Below are positions 12,515 through 54,735 of a DNA stretch of 64,000 nt, piece by piece; positions within the stretch are counted from its first letter, which is position 1; each line of letters begins with the position of its first letter. Below the pieces are notes generated by a model. The model ran no database searches. It was not told the DNA's origin and saw nothing but the letters and a program-made list of their open reading frames with translations. The translations under genes and the position numbers were made by a program. The stretch spans positions 124,001 to 188,000 of the forward strand of contig NZ_QBUG01000006.1 of assembly GCF_003058225.1 (NCBI RefSeq), given 5' to 3'. This stretch comes from Promicromonospora sp. AC04. GTDB taxonomy: Bacteria > Actinomycetota > Actinomycetes > Actinomycetales > Cellulomonadaceae.

Positions 12515-13714
12515 CTAGCGCAGGGCCGCGTGACCGTCGTCGTGGTGGGCCCGACCGGGTCGCCCGGCGATCTCCAGGACGACGACAACGGCCACGAGGA
12601 CCACCGCGGTCAGGGTGACGGGGACGGGGATCAACGGGTCGCACAGGACCAGTACCGCGGCCAGCGGGACGACGGTGTTGACGAGCCGGTCGGCGTGGTC
12701 GCGGATCGCTATCCACCAGACGCCGGACAGGAAGACCGCTATCGGGACCGTCACGGTGAAGGAGGCGGCCAGGTCGCTGAGTTCGCTGTGCCCGGTCAGG
12801 ACGTCGATCTCCACCTCGATGCCCGCGGAGAGCGCGCCGGCGGCGGCGAACACGAAGTAGTGGGCGTAGCCGTAGCGCAGCGCCCCGCCGAAGCCGGTGA
12901 TGGACCGGTGGTGGGGCGGCCAGAAGTAGACCCACCACAGGGCACCGGTCGCGACGAACGTGAGCCCGGCGAGCGAGATCAGCGGTCCGAGGGCGTCGGC
13001 GTCGTGGACGGCGTCGATGATCGCGTTCGACGAGGCGAGGAGGCTCTCGCCGAGCAGGATGAGCGTGAACAGGCCGTAGCGCTCGGTGATGTGGTGCGGG
13101 TGCCACGGAGCGCTGCCTCGTCTCTGGGCGATGACCGGGATCGCGACCTCGGCGCCGATGAGCAGAACCAGCAAGACCATGCCGGGTACTCCCGGCACCA
13201 CGAGCTGGACCAGCCAGAGGACCTGTACCGCAGTGATACCCCTGGCGTAGGCCTGGGCGGTGCGGTGGATGGACGCGTGGGAGCGTGCGGCGCGCAGCCA
13301 CTGAGCGACCATCGCCAGGCGCATGACCACGAAGCCGAGGACCGGCAGGGTGTACTCCGCGTCGGCGAAGGCCGGTTCGATCCCGCTGGCGAGGACGAGC
13401 ACGCCGGCCATCTGGACGATGGTCAGCACGCGGTAGAGCCAGTCGTCGGTGTCGAACGACGTGGCGAACCAGGTGAAGTTCATCCAGGCCCACCAGATCC
13501 CGAAGAACACCAGGCCGTAGGCGACGAGGCCGTCGAGCACGCGCCCCTCGGTCAGCGCGTGATGAAGCTGGACGGAGGCGATGCTGACCGCGACGACGAA
13601 GACGAGGTCGAAGAACAGCTCGAGCGTGCTGGCCGAGCGGCCCTGCTCGTCGGGGTCGCGGGGCGCCATCGGGACGAGGCGGAACCTGCTCGCCCGAGGC
13701 CGGGGAACGGTCAT
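12515..13714 (-). CDS. Low-temperature requirement protein A (LtrA) family membrane protein
   Basis: 399-residue polytopic inner-membrane protein. Family hallmarks are ELFFDLVFVVAVS in the first helix, WWAWMNFTWFATSFDTDD and the HITERYGLFTLILLGESLLA segment. Roughly twelve hydrophobic segments are visible. The physiological role of LtrA proteins is not well defined. ATG 13714 is preferred, with GGAAGGA upstream; an in-frame extension upstream has poor codon usage. It is the last gene of a same-strand series starting at the alpha/beta hydrolase at 18183. Confidence 0.88.
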   Translation of the reverse strand: MTVPRPRASRFRLVPMAPRDPDEQGRSASTLELFFDLVFVVAVSIASVQLHHALTEGRVLDGLVAYGLVFFGIWWAWMNFTWFATSFDTDDWLYRVLTIVQMAGVLVLASGIEPAFADAEYTLPVLGFVVMRLAMVAQWLRAARSHASIHRTAQAYARGITAVQVLWLVQLVVPGVPGMVLLVLLIGAEVAIPVIAQRRGSAPWHPHHITERYGLFTLILLGESLLASSNAIIDAVHDADALGPLISLAGLTFVATGALWWVYFWPPHHRSITGFGGALRYGYAHYFVFAAAGALSAGIEVEIDVLTGHSELSDLAASFTVTVPIAVFLSGVWWIAIRDHADRLVNTVVPLAAVLVLCDPLIPVPVTLTAVVLVAVVVVLEIAGRPGRAHHDDGHAALR

Positions 13715-13788
13715 CGTCGCGGGGTCCTTCCGGTCGCGAGCAGGAGAGGCGCAGTGGTTGGTGGCTCTGGTGCGCGCTCGTCCATGGT

Positions 13789-14130
13789 TCAGCGCAGAGC
13801 GCGGAGGTGCTCCGGGCTCACGGGTTCGGTGGCGTCGTCGAATTCGTGGTGCAGCGAGAGCCACTTCTTCACGTACGGGCCGACGGCCACGATGCGGTAT
13901 CCCGCCTGGACGCTGGTGCTCAGCGCGGCGCGTGTGAGGGTGCTGGCGAGACCATGACCCTCGAACGCGTCGAAGACCACCGTGTGGTAAAAGATGCGCT
14001 GTCGCGCAGATGTCGTTCCGAGGTCCTTGTACATGGAGAACCCGGCCTCGACACCATCGACAAGGACATCGAACCGGCTCTTGTCGGGATTGTCGCGCAC
14101 GGTGACTACTTGCTGGTCCTGATCGTTCAT
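13789..14130 (-). CDS. Small GNAT-like N-acetyltransferase (YidJ/CG type)
   Basis: 113-residue single-domain protein of the compact GNAT subgroup. It has FYHTVVFDAFEGHGLASTLT (beta4 and a shortened acetyl-CoA loop) and ends IVAVGPYVKKWLSLHHEF, a typical PYVxxW tail. Start ATG 14130 has GAGAGGA upstream. It lies between the MoaF/SnoaL-like gene and ltrA on the same strand with short gaps, so co-transcription is likely. Confidence 0.8.
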   Translation of the reverse strand: MNDQDQQVVTVRDNPDKSRFDVLVDGVEAGFSMYKDLGTTSARQRIFYHTVVFDAFEGHGLASTLTRAALSTSVQAGYRIVAVGPYVKKWLSLHHEFDDATEPVSPEHLRALR

Positions 14131-14170: not shown

Positions 14171-14887
14171 TCACACGATGGGGTGGCCGCTGGTCGTCGA
14201 CTCTGGCGGGGTGAGGTCCTGTACGACGTCCCAGTGCTCGACGATGCGACCGTTCTCCAGACGGAAGATGTCGACGATCACCACTGGGCCCGGTGCCCAG
14301 CCGTGGACGATGCTGTGGGTGAAGACGAGGTCACCTTGGGCTGCGATGCGCTGCGGCTCCCAGGAGAATCCCGCCAGAGTGGGCACGGCAGCGCGCAGCG
14401 TAGCGAGACCGTCAGGCATCTGAGGGCTGTGCTGTACGTATGGTTCGGCCCAGTAGCGGTCCAGCGCGGTGAGGTCCTTCTCGCCGAAGAGCTCCCGCAT
14501 CGCGGTGAGCACGATCTTGATGTTGTCCTCGGCCTGGCTGCTCCCGGTGACGGTGTGGTCGACGACGACGGCGTCGGCCACCTCCGTGATGGTTCCGACG
14601 AAGTTGTACAGGGTGCCGTCGACGGTGACGTTGGAGTAGAGCGTCGCGTTGGTGAAGTCCTCCACGTGCGTCACCGTCGCGCCGCTGCCCTCGGTCCAGG
14701 AGTTCAGGTAGACGCCGTCGCGGATCTCCTTCAGGTCGAGCGCGACGGTCTCGGCGTGGCCGTTCGGTGTGAGCCCGCCGCCTTCCTCCACGACGAAGCG
14801 GCCCTGCGACGGCGAGTCGAAGGTGAATCTCACCTTCAGCCAGCCCATGTCGAACCTGTAGGTCTTGCCCACCATCTGCATGGTCAT
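14171..14887 (-). CDS. MoaF-like (lipocalin-type) plus SnoaL/NTF2-like two-domain protein
   Basis: 238 residues if started at ATG 14887. The first ~110 residues (MVGKTYRFDMGWLKVRFTF onward) are beta-rich and resemble MoaF-type lipocalin-like domains. The last ~115 (EDNIKIVLTAMRELFGEKDL to GRIVEHWDVVQDL) are an NTF2/SnoaL-like cone domain. The start is supported by GAAAGGA five bases before ATG 14887. The frame continues upstream to ATG 15043, which also has a ribosome site and would give a 290-residue protein with an unrelated N-terminus. Enzymatic role unknown; small-molecule binding or isomerisation is plausible. Confidence 0.65.
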   Translation of the reverse strand: MTMQMVGKTYRFDMGWLKVRFTFDSPSQGRFVVEEGGGLTPNGHAETVALDLKEIRDGVYLNSWTEGSGATVTHVEDFTNATLYSNVTVDGTLYNFVGTITEVADAVVVDHTVTGSSQAEDNIKIVLTAMRELFGEKDLTALDRYWAEPYVQHSPQMPDGLATLRAAVPTLAGFSWEPQRIAAQGDLVFTHSIVHGWAPGPVVIVDIFRLENGRIVEHWDVVQDLTPPESTTSGHPIV

Positions 14888-15043
14888 GGAGTTCCTTTCA
14901 TTGCCGGACGACGGCTGGAAGAGCAGCAGCAGAACGTCCTCGACGAGCAGCGGTTCATCGATCGGCCGCTCGCGAGGCGCATCGTCAGCGCGGCCCGCCG
15001 GTGTCTGGTTCTCGTCGTTCGGGGCGGAGCTGTCTTGGGGCAT
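14888..15043 (-). pseudogene. Possible N-terminal remnant of a GPP34 (GOLPH3-like) gene, in frame with the downstream gene
   Basis: ATG 15043 follows AGGAGA at good spacing and encodes about 52 residues. After a polar stretch comes EPLLVEDVLLLLFQPSSG, which resembles the conserved N-terminus of actinobacterial GPP34 proteins. The rest of such a protein is missing. The frame runs straight into the MoaF/SnoaL-like gene, which has its own ribosome site. Either it is a truncated gene or a 52-residue extension of the next protein. Confidence 0.4.
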
Positions 15044-15073: not shown

Positions 15074-16978
15074 TCAGGGTGTCGGACCGTCGTAGCTCGT
15101 CCAGAAGTCGATGGCTTCCGGTCGTGGGCGTGGTGCCATGCCGGTGTCGGTTCCGAGCTTCATGACCTGCCCGGGAGCGTCCCGGACGGTTGACCAGCCG
15201 GGCAGGCCGAGCCCGTTCGGGTCTCCGTGGAGCACGAAGTTCAGCCAGTAGCCGCGCATCTGGTCGCGGAGCCGGTAGTCGTCCTGGCCGTAGTCGGCGT
15301 CGCCGTCCTTGCCCAGGTTGTCGTAGGCGTACATGACCTCTGCGCCGTGGTAGGCGCCGTACTTCTCCAGGCCCGGGTCTGGTGGGGTGTGCGTGAAGAA
15401 GTACAGGTAGGCGGGAGCCCGGCCGGTCCGCGTCTGCAGGTGTGCCCAGCGGTGCATCGCCCGGGTCATGACCTGGTCCGTCTGGGACTGCAGGAGCGAG
15501 TCGAGCACCTGGTCCTCGGTAGCCCCGGGGTACAGGTCGAGGAAGGTCCGGGCGAGGTCGCCGTACTTCTCCCGCGCGGACGCCTGGTAGGCGTCGACGT
15601 CGGTATCCGGCGGGGCCGCGAGCGCCAGCGAGCTCTCGTCCGCGTTGCTGCCCACCAGGGTCGGCACGTCGAGCTGGTCCCCGTCCGCGTAGATCTGTGC
15701 GGGTGACCGGTCCAGCACGTGACCGTCGACAGACGGCCGCCAGTGCGGGCCGACGGCGGCGGCCGCCTCCGTGATCTCGCCGACGGGCATCAGCCGCATC
15801 TGGTCGATCGTGGCGCCGCCCAGTTCCTGGGCCAGCCGCCGGCCGGCGTCCTCGGCCACGGCCCGGGTGTCGGCCTGGTCACCGTTCTCAGTGTTTCCCG
15901 TGGTGCCCATGCAGGCGCCGCTAGCGCCGATGATGCCGTCGATCAGGCCTCGGGTCAGCGGCGTCGCACCCAGGGTGCACACGCTCTCCCCGCCGGCGGA
16001 CTCACCGGCGATCGTGACCCGGGAGGGGTCGCCGCCGAACGCGGCGATGTTCTGCCGGATCCAGTCCAGGGCGGCGATCTGGTCCAGGATCCCGTAGTTG
16101 CCCGAGGCGTCGTGCTCCGACTCTGCGGCCAGCTCGGGGTGGGACAGGAAGCCCAGCACACCAAGCCGGTAGCTGATCGTCACCACGATGACCTCGCCGC
16201 TGGAGGCCAGCGCCTCGCCGTCGTACAGCGGCAGAGCGCCTGAACCCGTGGCGAAGCCGCCACCTGGGATGTACACCAGCACCGGCAGCCGGTCCGAGGC
16301 GGGTCCTGTACTACGCCAGATGTTGAGGTAGAGGCTGTCTTCGCTGACCGGGTAGGGGTTCAGGAGCGTGTTCTCCAGCGGCACGTCGACGACTTGCGAC
16401 AGGGCACGGGTGGCGAACGTGGAGGTGCCCTGAACGGGTGCGGCCGAGAACCGGTCCGCCGCCAGCACTTCGGCCCGTTTCTGGGGTGGCCGCGGCGGCC
16501 GCCAGCGCAGCTCCCCTACGGGTGGCTGGGCGTATGGAACACCCGCGAAGATCTCGACCGTGCCGGCATCGTTGTGGACGCCGGTCACCGGGCCCTCCCT
16601 GGTTGTGACGGTCTGGGTGGGTTGTGGATCGTCCCCGCCGGCGAGGCGCACCTGCGGCGCCGGGTAGGCCACCACCGCGGCGCCACACACCACGACCGCC
16701 GCGACCAGCCACGCGCCCACCCGCAGAAGGAGGCCGCGTCTCGACCACCACCGGGCGGTCACCACGAACAGCGCGAACAGCACGAAGACCAGACCCAAGC
16801 CCCACCACGGGCTGCGGTTGAGCCACAGGAGGGCCGAGGCGACGACCGCCAGGAGAGCCAGCGGCACCCAGGACCACGCCGAACACGATGGCGCGTTGCG
16901 GAGGGACGCCGCCGTTCGGGGCTCGCGTGCGGCGGTCGAGCTCGCGCTTTCATGCTCACGAGCTTGGCGGGGGTTCAT
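15074..16978 (-). CDS. Type B carboxylesterase with N-terminal membrane segments
   Basis: 634 residues. Up to three hydrophobic segments occupy residues ~30-110 (for example VPLALLAVVASALLWL). An extracytoplasmic-looking linker precedes a complete carboxylesterase type B domain: YAQPPVGELRWRPP, oxyanion loop YIPGGGFATGSG, nucleophile elbow TIAGESAGGESV, the acidic region GSNADESSLAL and a histidine in GAYHGAEVMYAYDN. It should hydrolyse carboxylic esters at the cell surface. ATG 16978 overlaps the preceding stop (ATGA), so the two genes are coupled. Confidence 0.87.
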   Translation of the reverse strand: MNPRQAREHESASSTAAREPRTAASLRNAPSCSAWSWVPLALLAVVASALLWLNRSPWWGLGLVFVLFALFVVTARWWSRRGLLLRVGAWLVAAVVVCGAAVVAYPAPQVRLAGGDDPQPTQTVTTREGPVTGVHNDAGTVEIFAGVPYAQPPVGELRWRPPRPPQKRAEVLAADRFSAAPVQGTSTFATRALSQVVDVPLENTLLNPYPVSEDSLYLNIWRSTGPASDRLPVLVYIPGGGFATGSGALPLYDGEALASSGEVIVVTISYRLGVLGFLSHPELAAESEHDASGNYGILDQIAALDWIRQNIAAFGGDPSRVTIAGESAGGESVCTLGATPLTRGLIDGIIGASGACMGTTGNTENGDQADTRAVAEDAGRRLAQELGGATIDQMRLMPVGEITEAAAAVGPHWRPSVDGHVLDRSPAQIYADGDQLDVPTLVGSNADESSLALAAPPDTDVDAYQASAREKYGDLARTFLDLYPGATEDQVLDSLLQSQTDQVMTRAMHRWAHLQTRTGRAPAYLYFFTHTPPDPGLEKYGAYHGAEVMYAYDNLGKDGDADYGQDDYRLRDQMRGYWLNFVLHGDPNGLGLPGWSTVRDAPGQVMKLGTDTGMAPRPRPEAIDFWTSYDGPTP

Positions 16979-17226
16979 GCGGCTTCGACCGCGGTGACGA
17001 GGCCGGTGGCCGCCAGGGTGAGCAGGACGACGGCGATGATGTTGCCCGCCGCGCCCGACACCGCGGCAACGACCGGGTGGATGCCCGCGAAGACGCGCAG
17101 CGCCCCTGATCCCTCGCCCTCGATGTACGGGATCGCGCCGGCCAGCGCGACGATCAGGGGCTGGACGATCTCCGGCACCTGTGCAACGAGGTCTTGGAGC
17201 CACTCGTAGGGGTTGGAACCTGACAT
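16975..17226 (-). CDS. Small membrane protein, small-multidrug-export-like, 83 residues
   Basis: Begins SGSNPYEWLQDLVAQVPEIV, has a hydrophobic segment ending AIPYIEGEGSGALRVFAGIHP, then a C-terminal helix (GNIIAVVLLTLAATGLVTAV). The VPYIEGEG..GIHP pattern resembles proteins annotated as small multidrug export (Pfam Sm_multidrug_ex), but those are normally longer, so this may be a shortened version. ATG 17226 has AGGAGA upstream. The stop overlaps the esterase start, tying its expression to that gene. Confidence 0.65.
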   Translation of the reverse strand: MSGSNPYEWLQDLVAQVPEIVQPLIVALAGAIPYIEGEGSGALRVFAGIHPVVAAVSGAAGNIIAVVLLTLAATGLVTAVEAA

Positions 17227-17286: not shown

Positions 17287-18183
17287 CTACGGGGCGAGCC
17301 GGCTCTTCGGTGCCAGGGCCCGTTCTGAGAGGACCTGGAGCTTCTCGCCCAGGCTGCCGATCACAAGAGAGAGGTGCCCCTGCTCGGGTTCCAGGTGTGC
17401 CTTGGCTGTGGGCAGGTGCTCGGCCAGCCACCGGCCGTGCGTGACCGGGACCATCCGGTCGACGGTGCCGTGCCACAGTTCGACCGGCGCCGTGACGGCA
17501 CCGAGGTCGAAGCCCCACGGGCTGGTGAGCGCGGCCAGGTCCGCGACCCAGCCCTCGTCCCCTCGGGAGAGTCCGTGGTCCATGTTGGCCGCGTTGTCCG
17601 CGCCGTACTCGCCGGTCAGCACCGCCAGATCCGCGGGAGGCAGCAACGACGCCATCTCGGCGGCGACGTCCGCCGACGTGTGGCCCCGGACAGCCGAGGC
17701 CATCTGCCCAACGAGCTCGCGCATCGCCGCATCGCCGTGCCCGACCGTCCCGAACTGCGCGACGTTCTGGGCGCCCATGCCCTCGACGTAGTCGAGTCCG
17801 TCGGCGTCGAACGGTGCGAACGAGGCCACGAGCAGCACACCCCCGACGCGGTCCCGGGCTACCGCCGCGCTGGCCAGGGCATGCGGTCCGCCGGCGGACC
17901 ACCCGGCGACCAGGTAGTGCATGACGCCGAGGTGGGTGAGCAGGAAGGCGCAGTCGGCGGCCGTGTCGAGGACCGTCCGGCCGACGGCGGGAGTCGATGC
18001 GCCGTACCCGGCCCTCGAGTACGTGACCACCCGGAACCCGCGGTCCGTCATCGAACCCAGAACCGTGCCCATCGGGACGGCCGAGCCCGGCATCCCGTGG
18101 TGGAACAGGACGACCGGTCCCGTGCTCGGTCCTCGAACGTCGTACTCGAGATCGCGCCCGTCGGGCAGCTGTAGGAGTGGCAC
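17287..18183 (-). CDS. Alpha/beta hydrolase
   Basis: About 298 residues with the alpha/beta hydrolase order: HG oxyanion region FHHGMPGSA, YSRAGYGAS, nucleophile elbow AGWSAGGPHA, acid in WHGTVDRMVP and His near EQGHLSLV. GTG 18183 is preferred because GGAGG lies five bases before it. ATG 18195 in the same frame has its only possible ribosome site just two bases away. It is the first gene of the minus-strand series and lies directly behind a MerR-type promoter. Substrate unknown; esterase or lactonase activity is likely. Confidence 0.82.
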   Translation of the reverse strand: MPLLQLPDGRDLEYDVRGPSTGPVVLFHHGMPGSAVPMGTVLGSMTDRGFRVVTYSRAGYGASTPAVGRTVLDTAADCAFLLTHLGVMHYLVAGWSAGGPHALASAAVARDRVGGVLLVASFAPFDADGLDYVEGMGAQNVAQFGTVGHGDAAMRELVGQMASAVRGHTSADVAAEMASLLPPADLAVLTGEYGADNAANMDHGLSRGDEGWVADLAALTSPWGFDLGAVTAPVELWHGTVDRMVPVTHGRWLAEHLPTAKAHLEPEQGHLSLVIGSLGEKLQVLSERALAPKSRLAP

Positions 18184-18256
18184 TGGAACCTCCATCACCT
18201 TCTGAGATCGAACGGAACATGCTCAAGGTCGCGCCCAGCCGTTGCCGGGTGTGCCG

Positions 18257-18287
18257 AGTAGAGACCGTGTCCTTGGGGCACGGTCAA
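18257..18287 (-). promoter_or_regulatory. MerR-regulated-type promoter (19-bp spacer with central dyad)
   Basis: On the minus strand TTGACC (18287-18282) and TCTACT (18262-18257) are separated by 19 bp instead of about 17. The spacer overlaps GACCGTG-N9-CACGGTC, a perfect 7-bp dyad at 18263-18285. An elongated spacer containing a dyad is the hallmark of promoters activated by MerR-family regulators through DNA distortion. It reads toward the alpha/beta hydrolase and the genes behind it. No MerR gene is adjacent; the only MerR-family gene here is soxR at 54247, whose box is different. Confidence 0.65.
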
Positions 18288-18305
18288 GCACCCGGCAGGA
18301 CACAA

Positions 18306-18348
18306 GGAGGCGGGCCTGGCGCACGCCACGGGCGCCAGGCCCGCCTCC
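18306..18348 (-). terminator. Hairpin terminator after the isochorismatase gene
   Basis: A perfect 17-bp inverted repeat (18306-18322 and 18332-18348, nine-base loop) lies 20 bases beyond the isochorismatase stop on the minus strand. It separates that gene from the MerR-type promoter of the next unit. Confidence 0.75.
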
Positions 18349-18367
18349 GGCTCAGCAGCAGCCGGCG

Positions 18368-19030
18368 CTACGCACCCGCGCCGTCGGCGGTGGGGGTGGC
18401 CAGCAGCTGCAGCTCCCAGGCCAGCGCGACACCGGTGGCGCCGCCGTGCTCGAAGAGGATCGGTCCGAGCTGGTTGGCCGTCTCCTCGCGAGCCCAGTCG
18501 CGCTGCCACTCGCTGGACACGACCAGCCAGGTGACGGGGACCACGCCGGCTCGTTCCATGCGGCGCACCGCCATGTCGTGCGCCTCGGCGGTGACACCGC
18601 CGCTGGCGTCTGTGACGACGAACACGTCGTACCCGTCGTCCAGCGCGTGGATGGCGGGCATGGCGACGCAGATCTCGGTCCACAGCCCGGCGATGATCAG
18701 CTTCTTGCGTCCGGTCTTCTTCACGGCGTCGACGACGCGCTGGTCTTCCCAGGTGTTGATGGACGTGCGGTTGATCGGCTTCTGGTCCGGGAAGACGTCC
18801 TGGATCGCCTGGATGAGGTGGCCGCCGCGTTCCTCGATCACCGTGGTGAGGATCGTCGGCACGTCGAACACCTTCGCGAACTTGGCGAGGCCGACGGTGT
18901 TGTTGACGACCAGGGTCGGTTCGTGGCTGTGGAGGTTGGCGACCTGGAAGGGCTGGTGGTCGATGAGCACCAGGACGCTCTCCTCGGGGGTGAGCAGCGC
19001 GTCGAGTCCTACCTTTGCGGAACGTGTCAT
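18368..19030 (-). CDS. Isochorismatase-family (YcaC-like) cysteine hydrolase
   Basis: 220 residues. Conserved features are VLVLIDHQPF (catalytic Asp), RTSINTWED, and KKLIIAGLWTEICVAMPAIH with the Lys and nucleophilic Cys, followed by YDVFVVTDASGG. This matches YcaC-type hydrolases, which act on amides or unknown substrates, more than true isochorismatases. ATG 19030 has AAAGAAG upstream. It is divergent from a LysR regulator, the usual layout for a LysR-controlled target. The 271-base gap between them holds a 10-bp inverted repeat (19147-19156 with 19186-19195) and no gene. Confidence 0.87.
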   Translation of the reverse strand: MTRSAKVGLDALLTPEESVLVLIDHQPFQVANLHSHEPTLVVNNTVGLAKFAKVFDVPTILTTVIEERGGHLIQAIQDVFPDQKPINRTSINTWEDQRVVDAVKKTGRKKLIIAGLWTEICVAMPAIHALDDGYDVFVVTDASGGVTAEAHDMAVRRMERAGVVPVTWLVVSSEWQRDWAREETANQLGPILFEHGGATGVALAWELQLLATPTADGAGA

Positions 19031-19286
19031 GTCGCTTCTTTCTGTGTGGCGGGCTGAACGCCAGGAGGGGAGAGGCGGGCTCAGAGCTGTTCGGGCGCGG
19101 CCATGCGGTACACGAACTCGCCGAGACCGGCCAGGCAGTGTGGGACGCCGGTCGGTGCGGCCGGCCGATACCGGATCCGGGCATGACCGACCGGCATCAA
19201 CGGGTGGGCCGGAGCCTGTCCCCGTGGCGTGACACGACGCTATGGCGGCCCTCCTGCAGGCGTCCAAGACTTGTCCCGACGCCGGA

Positions 19287-54063: not shown

Positions 54064-54081
54064 CCTGAACCAAAGTTGAGG
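54064..54081. promoter_or_regulatory. SoxR box
   Basis: CCTGAAC-CAAA-GTTGAGG is an 18-bp palindrome with one arm mismatch, close to the SoxR consensus CCTCAAG...CTTGAGG. On the minus strand it reads toward the quinone reductase. It sits between that gene and the divergent soxR, whose HTH and iron-sulfur motifs match this site type. Confidence 0.8.
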
Positions 54082-54246: not shown

Positions 54247-54735
54247 ATGGAAGCGCCCAACCCCGCCGTCCCCTGGGACCGTGACGAGCTCACCGTCGGC
54301 GACCTCGCCACCCGGAGCGGTGTGACGGTGTCCGCGCTGCACTTCTACGAGCGCAAGGGGCTGATCACGAGCCGACGCACGTCGGGCAACCAGCGGCGCT
54401 ACCGGCGGGAGACCTTGCGGCGCGTGGCATTCATCCGCGTGTCCCAGCGCGTCGGGATCCCGCTCGCCGACATCGGGGCGGCCCTCGACACCCTGCCCGG
54501 CGACCGCACGCCCACCGCGAAGGACTGGCGCCGCATCTCGCAGGCCTGGCACGACGACCTCGACGCAAGGATCGAACAGCTCTCCCGGCTGCGCGACCAT
54601 CTCACCGACTGCATCGGCTGCGGCTGCCTCTCGCTGCGCCGGTGCGCGCTGACCAACCCGCACGACGCCCTCGCCGAGGCCGGCCCTGGCCCGCGGACGC
54701 TGCTGGTGGACGGGCTGGAGCCCGACGGGGCCTGA
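54247..54735 (+). CDS. soxR: Redox-sensitive transcriptional activator SoxR (MerR family)
   Basis: 162 residues. MerR winged helix (LTVGDLATRSGVTVSALHFY, then ERKGLITSRRTSGNQRRYRR), dimerisation helix, and the [2Fe-2S]-binding cluster CIGCGCLSLRRC with Cys122, 125, 127 and 133. Oxidation of the cluster activates transcription. In actinomycetes SoxR responds to redox-active metabolites and induces reductases and efflux genes, which matches the divergent quinone reductase and MFS pair. ATG 54247 has AGGAGG seven bases upstream. Confidence 0.94.
   Translation: MEAPNPAVPWDRDELTVGDLATRSGVTVSALHFYERKGLITSRRTSGNQRRYRRETLRRVAFIRVSQRVGIPLADIGAALDTLPGDRTPTAKDWRRISQAWHDDLDARIEQLSRLRDHLTDCIGCGCLSLRRCALTNPHDALAEAGPGPRTLLVDGLEPDGA

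Follow-up and report, generated by a model that had tools for sequence, protein, structure and literature searches.

A probable MerR-type promoter ahead of a hydrolase–esterase operon in Promicromonospora sp. AC04 and a candidate activator encoded elsewhere in the genome

A hydrolase–esterase operon in the window (the whole 64,000-nucleotide stretch of Promicromonospora sp. AC04 analysed here) stands behind a promoter with MerR-type geometry, and the best candidate for its activator, judged from sequence, is a MerR-family protein encoded elsewhere in the same genome, at C4:22947-23711 on the minus strand (the C4 MerR). We consider it likely that this protein controls the window promoter by the usual MerR distortion mechanism. 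The first-pass annotation had proposed that the promoter has no MerR gene beside it and that its activator lies elsewhere. No fitting MerR gene adjoins it, and the genome search for the dyad and for MerR genes suggested at that stage has supplied a specific candidate, in silico, in the C4 MerR. The assignment is made because the genome search gave no other full-length member of this subfamily and because the operator is shared; it does not assume strict orthology with regulators of similar loci in other genomes.

Read on the minus strand from 18287 to 18257, the site is TTGACC-GTGCCCCAAGGACACGGTC-TCTACT (Table 1). The geometry originally described (TTGACC, 19 bp, TCTACT and a perfect dyad) is present in the sequence as claimed, except that the dyad, although perfect, is not wholly inside the spacer: its left arm (GACC...) overlaps the -35 hexamer and so extends outside it. 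The spacing falls within the 19-20 bp of MerR-activated promoters, the dyad is centred between -35 and -10, and a MerR gene of the same genome, that of the C4 MerR, is associated with the same site. MerR-family promoters have spacers of 19-20 bp and are activated by DNA distortion (PMC9909328, PMC1526738), and we infer the same for the window promoter. Scanning 18150-18420 for sigma-70-like promoters with 16-18-bp spacing gave none, which is little informative as shuffled sequences gave none either.

Table 1. Promoter elements and genes around the MerR-type site, in window coordinates.
Feature	Coordinates	Strand	Remarks
-35-like hexamer TTGACC	18282..18287	-	Read in sequence; also present at related sites
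19-bp spacer	18263-18281	-	Between TTGACC and TCTACT, read in sequence
-10-like hexamer TCTACT	18257..18262	-	19 bp from TTGACC
Perfect dyad GACCGTG-N9-CACGGTC, proposed MerR operator	18263..18285	-	0 mismatches, 7-bp arms
G+C-rich inverted repeat, without T run	18306..18348	.	By eye; aligned with G111 copy
Isochorismatase-domain gene, upstream syntenic anchor	18368..19180	-	90% identical copy adjoins same site in G111
Alpha/beta hydrolase (Abhydrolase_1), first gene	17287..18183	-	GTG start at 18183 chosen by eye for GGAGG
83-residue membrane protein	16975..17226	-	Internally shortened relative of the 200-residue protein adjoining the candidate MerR
Carboxylesterase, hydrophobic N-terminus	15074..16978	-	COesterase E 5e-105 (searched 15074-16708, internal start)
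MoaF-like/SnoaL-like protein	14171..15043	-	Common transcript presumed
GCN5-related acetyltransferase	13789..14130	-	PF14542; common transcript presumed
LtrA membrane protein; true start probably more internal	12515..13864	-	PF06772; common transcript presumed

The dyad alone is weak evidence. Loose matches to it are at background level: allowing 3 mismatches gives 10 matches in the window, where 14.8 are expected, and allowing 2 gives 68 places in the genome, where the reversed control has 64. The dyad by itself thus proves little, and matches with 2-3 mismatches were dropped as evidence. Exact copies occur at 2 places in the 6.85-Mb genome against 0 for the reversed control, a modest excess. 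The full -35/dyad/-10 pattern, searched as TTGACYNTG-N9-CANRGYNTNNRST, is found in the genome at 3 places without mismatch and at 4 with up to one mismatch, against 2 control matches counted at up to one mismatch. The three exact places are the window site; C8:208157-208187 (TTGACCGTGCCCTTGGGACACGGTCTGGAGT), upstream of a TAP-like alpha/beta hydrolase whose start looks signal-peptide-like by eye; and C4:23733-23763 (TTGACCCTGCCCCGACGGCACGGTTTCTACT), which lies between the C4 MerR gene, 21 bp away, and a divergent gene for a 200-residue membrane protein. The 200-residue protein is a relative of the 83-residue protein of the window operon, and the candidate regulator is therefore encoded beside a relative of one of its proposed targets. 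Two further places were set aside: C5:45230 (dyad with 2 mismatches, 16 of 20 positions), which has neither TTGACC nor a -10, and C14:107477 (1 mismatch to the pattern), which adjoins a MerR gene of another type. The latter site, TTGACCTGGAGCGCACTCCAGGGTTTTCGCT at C14:107477-107507 beside the MerR gene at C14:107251, exemplifies a second class of MerR-type promoter; G006, G087, G111 and G123 have similar sites. A dyad of a third type, TTGACCTTGACCTGAGGTCAAGGTGGACGCT with its variants, recurs at G006:C31:278172, G087:C38:23297, G111:C7:78186 and G123:C5:298460.

The C4 MerR has a clear N-terminal winged helix (PF13411, 49.2 bits against a cut-off of 21.6; PF00376, 46.7 against 28.2), and TipA and CueR are among the proteins that its DNA-binding domain matches; for a profile of 12 relatives, the nearest solved chain is the N-terminal domain of TipA (E 2.9e-15). 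A structure model of a Sinosporangium relative, built from 12 sequences (pLDDT 80), consists of the MerR domain, a long low-confidence helix, possibly for dimerisation (residues 74-105, in a block with pLDDT of only 48-71), and a helical C-terminal domain, which reaches pLDDT 90 when modelled alone. This C-terminal domain had no significant match to solved structures by profile (best E 0.11) or by fold (best E 1.1), and in Pfam one of the 12 members reached 0.0017 to a haem-binding family, the others being weaker. No TipAS match was found in the C-terminal part of the 12 members, and the fold match to the TipA drug-binding domain, 2mbz, had E 2.7 and TM 0.3, so that neither sequence nor fold supports a TipAS identity for the sensor domain.

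Within the genome, no full-length match of this subfamily was found besides the C4 MerR; the next match covers residues 6-115 at 41% and forms a very long branch of the tree. MerR_1 matches number 24 in the genome, and another of these proteins might control what would still be a MerR-type promoter, for example that encoded at C6:408772-409104, which over 62 residues shares 48% identity with the DNA-binding domain of the C4 MerR, or the SoxR-like protein of the window (54247-54735, plus strand). We regard this as improbable, since only two of the 24 MerR loci (L011-L034), L027 with the C4 gene (17) and L033 (16), contain a match to at least 16 of 20 consensus positions, L023 and L024 having none in the same scan, and since zero-mismatch sites track the C4 subfamily across the genus. 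SoxR is likewise of the MerR family, with a different operator sequence, and the SoxR-like gene was rejected as the regulator because a different box-like sequence lies upstream of it. That sequence, CCTGAACCAAAGTTGAGG at 54064-54081, has 1 mismatch to what we take to be the sox-box consensus, a resemblance that by itself is not beyond chance.

The co-occurrence of C4-type regulators and sites extends through the genus. Full-length relatives of the C4 MerR (at least 45% identity) are present in 11 of 13 genus genomes, G048 and G117 having only shorter, weaker matches. All 26 zero-mismatch sites among the 13 genomes fall within those 11, each of which has at least one. G048 and G117 have no zero-mismatch site; the former has one loose dyad match at 2 mismatches, and in the latter a single match, non-palindromic and with 1 mismatch, stands against 3 in the control. 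Every one of the 26 sites is upstream of a gene for MerR, the membrane protein, a CPBP protease, a TAP-like hydrolase or the window's hydrolase, as identified by tblastn with reference proteins; the reference families were picked because they were seen near sites, so this is recurrence and not unbiased enrichment. For the site at G105:C3:935400, the TAP match has 48% identity and starts ~400 bases downstream. Allowing up to one mismatch gives 48 pattern matches in the 13 genomes against 9 control matches; the 22 that have one mismatch were kept out of the count of 26, 9 of them being of the two other dyad types and 13 incompletely sorted, some of these adjoining regulon genes. More broadly, the exact pattern occurs in 3 of 200 genomes of the family, all of this genus and the present one included, and the MerR subfamily, at E 1e-40 and with up to 18 candidates per genome scored, in at least 3 of 149 genomes of the phylum, again including this one. 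The geometry, the three sites in the genome, their conservation and their co-occurrence with the MerR subfamily can all be read directly from the DNA.

Absence of the dyad from orthologous loci had been named at the outset as a result that would refute the MerR-type reading, and this was checked. The syntenic locus of G111 has the site, as does a membrane-protein and esterase pair in G031, which it precedes; the hydrolase locus of G031 (L146) and the esterase locus of G077 (L145) have no site above 13 bits. In G111 the order after the isochorismatase gene is site, membrane protein, hydrolase, the window order being hydrolase first, and the two promoters align together with the upstream inverted repeat, which in both genomes lies between the isochorismatase gene and the promoter. 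In the comparison of esterase and membrane-protein loci, the tblastn alignment to the 83-residue gene of the window extended beyond the stop of that gene and is of descriptive use only. The esterase and a MerR gene with its own site also lie within ~9 kb in G111, the MerR gene being 6.8 kb from the syntenic promoter. This MerR is a different paralogue from the C4 MerR, 49% identical and in another group of the tree, so control by the C4 MerR in the window presupposes an operator shared between paralogues. The tree of 31 MerR proteins has several paralogue groups and does not settle the place of the C4 protein within them.

The earlier account of the unit behind the promoter needs two revisions: the 83-residue protein is a shortened relative of a larger one, and the operon appears to be one arm of a larger putative regulon. 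Over 82 aa the 83-residue protein shares 73% identity with the 200-residue protein, and its end likewise matches the end of the longer one, at the C-terminus, so it is an internally shortened relative, lacking the middle. Its stop overlaps the esterase start (ATGA), with the esterase ATG at 16978, and the gene may for this reason have been kept for translational coupling with the esterase. Assignment of the membrane protein as a multidrug exporter was rejected, the best match to Sm_multidrug_ex (PF06695) being 23.0 bits (L160) against a curated cut-off of 30.7 and the copies of this genome being unmatched. At several loci the MerR gene is followed by a GPP34 gene (PF05719 in L159 and L161). 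At its N-terminal end the MoaF/SnoaL-like protein is similar to the beginning of GPP34 proteins (LVEDVLLLLFQP; pairwise E 5e-6, from a set of 3 sequences and with composition uncorrected), and alignment of the G111 copy starts at residue 26; the gene is possibly an old fusion, in the position that GPP34 takes behind MerR at other loci.

The shortened protein, together with the failure to find in this genome the paralogue type linked to the G111 locus, would fit a promoter that is a decaying, non-working leftover, its linked MerR having once controlled the operon and since been lost from the genome. Such a history seems to us very unlikely, given that the dyad is perfect and the site has the highest score among those scored (48.6 bits, with a matrix that includes the window site), and that the window's hydrolase and esterase align with relatives over almost their whole length.

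A matrix trained on 13 sites, none adjoining MerR genes, provides a further line of evidence that links the sites to MerR genes. It was applied to 30 MerR genes, in each case to the 300 bp upstream; the genes comprise 18 of the 23 full-length genus members (own included) and 12 from named actinobacteria; the named loci number at least 12 and come from Sinosporangium, Nonomuraea, Herbidospora, Jidongwangia, Microbacterium, Kineococcus, Subtercola, Lacisediminihabitans, Citricoccus, two Tsukamurella and Brachybacterium. Scores of at least 15 bits were found upstream of 19 of the 30 genes (at least 20 bits in 18, at least 25 in 16), and 3000 dinucleotide shuffles of these same regions reached at least 15 bits 0 times, with a maximum of 13.1. 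The remaining 5 genus genes, which the shuffles do not cover, included 2 positives (18.4 and 26.9 bits), for a total of 21 of 35 MerR genes; the other 14 have no site of at least 15 bits in the 300 bp upstream, several having one at another position of the locus. Many repressors, too, bind dyads that overlie promoters, and the dyad alone has no power to identify the protein family, but that it is the operator of a repressor from another family, overlapping a promoter by chance, is hardly credible when sites adjoin MerR genes in other actinobacteria too and when T....T lies exactly 19 bp from TTGACC in 14 of 16 sites chosen on the dyad only (TTGA kept, up to one mismatch in TTGACCGTG/CACGGTC; exceptions L045 and L055).

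Under control by the C4 MerR, a dimer of this protein would bind the window dyad and, unliganded, would hold the over-long 19-bp promoter poorly active. Binding of a ligand by the helical C-terminal domain would then distort the spacer so that RNA polymerase engages both hexamers. The site would drive the hydrolase, membrane-protein and esterase genes and probably also those for the MoaF/SnoaL-like protein, the acetyltransferase and LtrA, and the C4 MerR would act as well on the promoters of the divergent 200-residue membrane-protein gene and of the C8 TAP-like hydrolase. Binding, activation and the extent of the operon are what we infer from these arrangements. Because the targets are membrane proteins and hydrolases, our guess is that the inducer is a membrane-active or lipophilic toxic compound.

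The proposed system resembles the multidrug activators TipA, BmrR and Mta in having an N-terminal MerR domain with a larger C-terminal domain, a 19-20-bp spacer with a central dyad, and membrane proteins among its putative targets. It differs from them in that its C-terminal domain has no significant sequence or fold match and in that hydrolases, CPBP proteases and GPP34 proteins take the place of a known pump among its putative targets. CueR/HmrR and MerR metal-resistance promoters share the 19-bp spacer and the dyad between the hexamers (PMC1526738, PMC9909328), but have other half-site sequences (likewise PMC1526738); here, moreover, no metal genes were recognised among the targets, and the C-terminal domain is long.

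Promoter distortion by MerR itself is a textbook mechanism and already known. A literature search covering titles and the starts of abstracts found no description of such a MerR regulon. A more far-reaching reading, less likely than not, is that an undescribed subfamily of actinobacterial MerR proteins, having a ligand-binding domain of a new kind, responds to a membrane-active or lipophilic compound by switching a scattered regulon for envelope protection, one arm of which, in this genome, has lost its linked regulator and is read in trans. Putative members of this regulon are the small membrane protein, the CPBP intramembrane protease, the bacterial GPP34 protein, and the TAP-like and membrane-anchored hydrolases. 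The analysis provides an orphan promoter with a testable candidate regulator and sketches the putative, conserved regulon of a MerR subfamily; for the sensor domain of that subfamily our searches gave no significant solved match. It also offers a lead to the function of poorly understood actinobacterial proteins such as GPP34, CPBP and the small membrane protein, and a possible biosensor.
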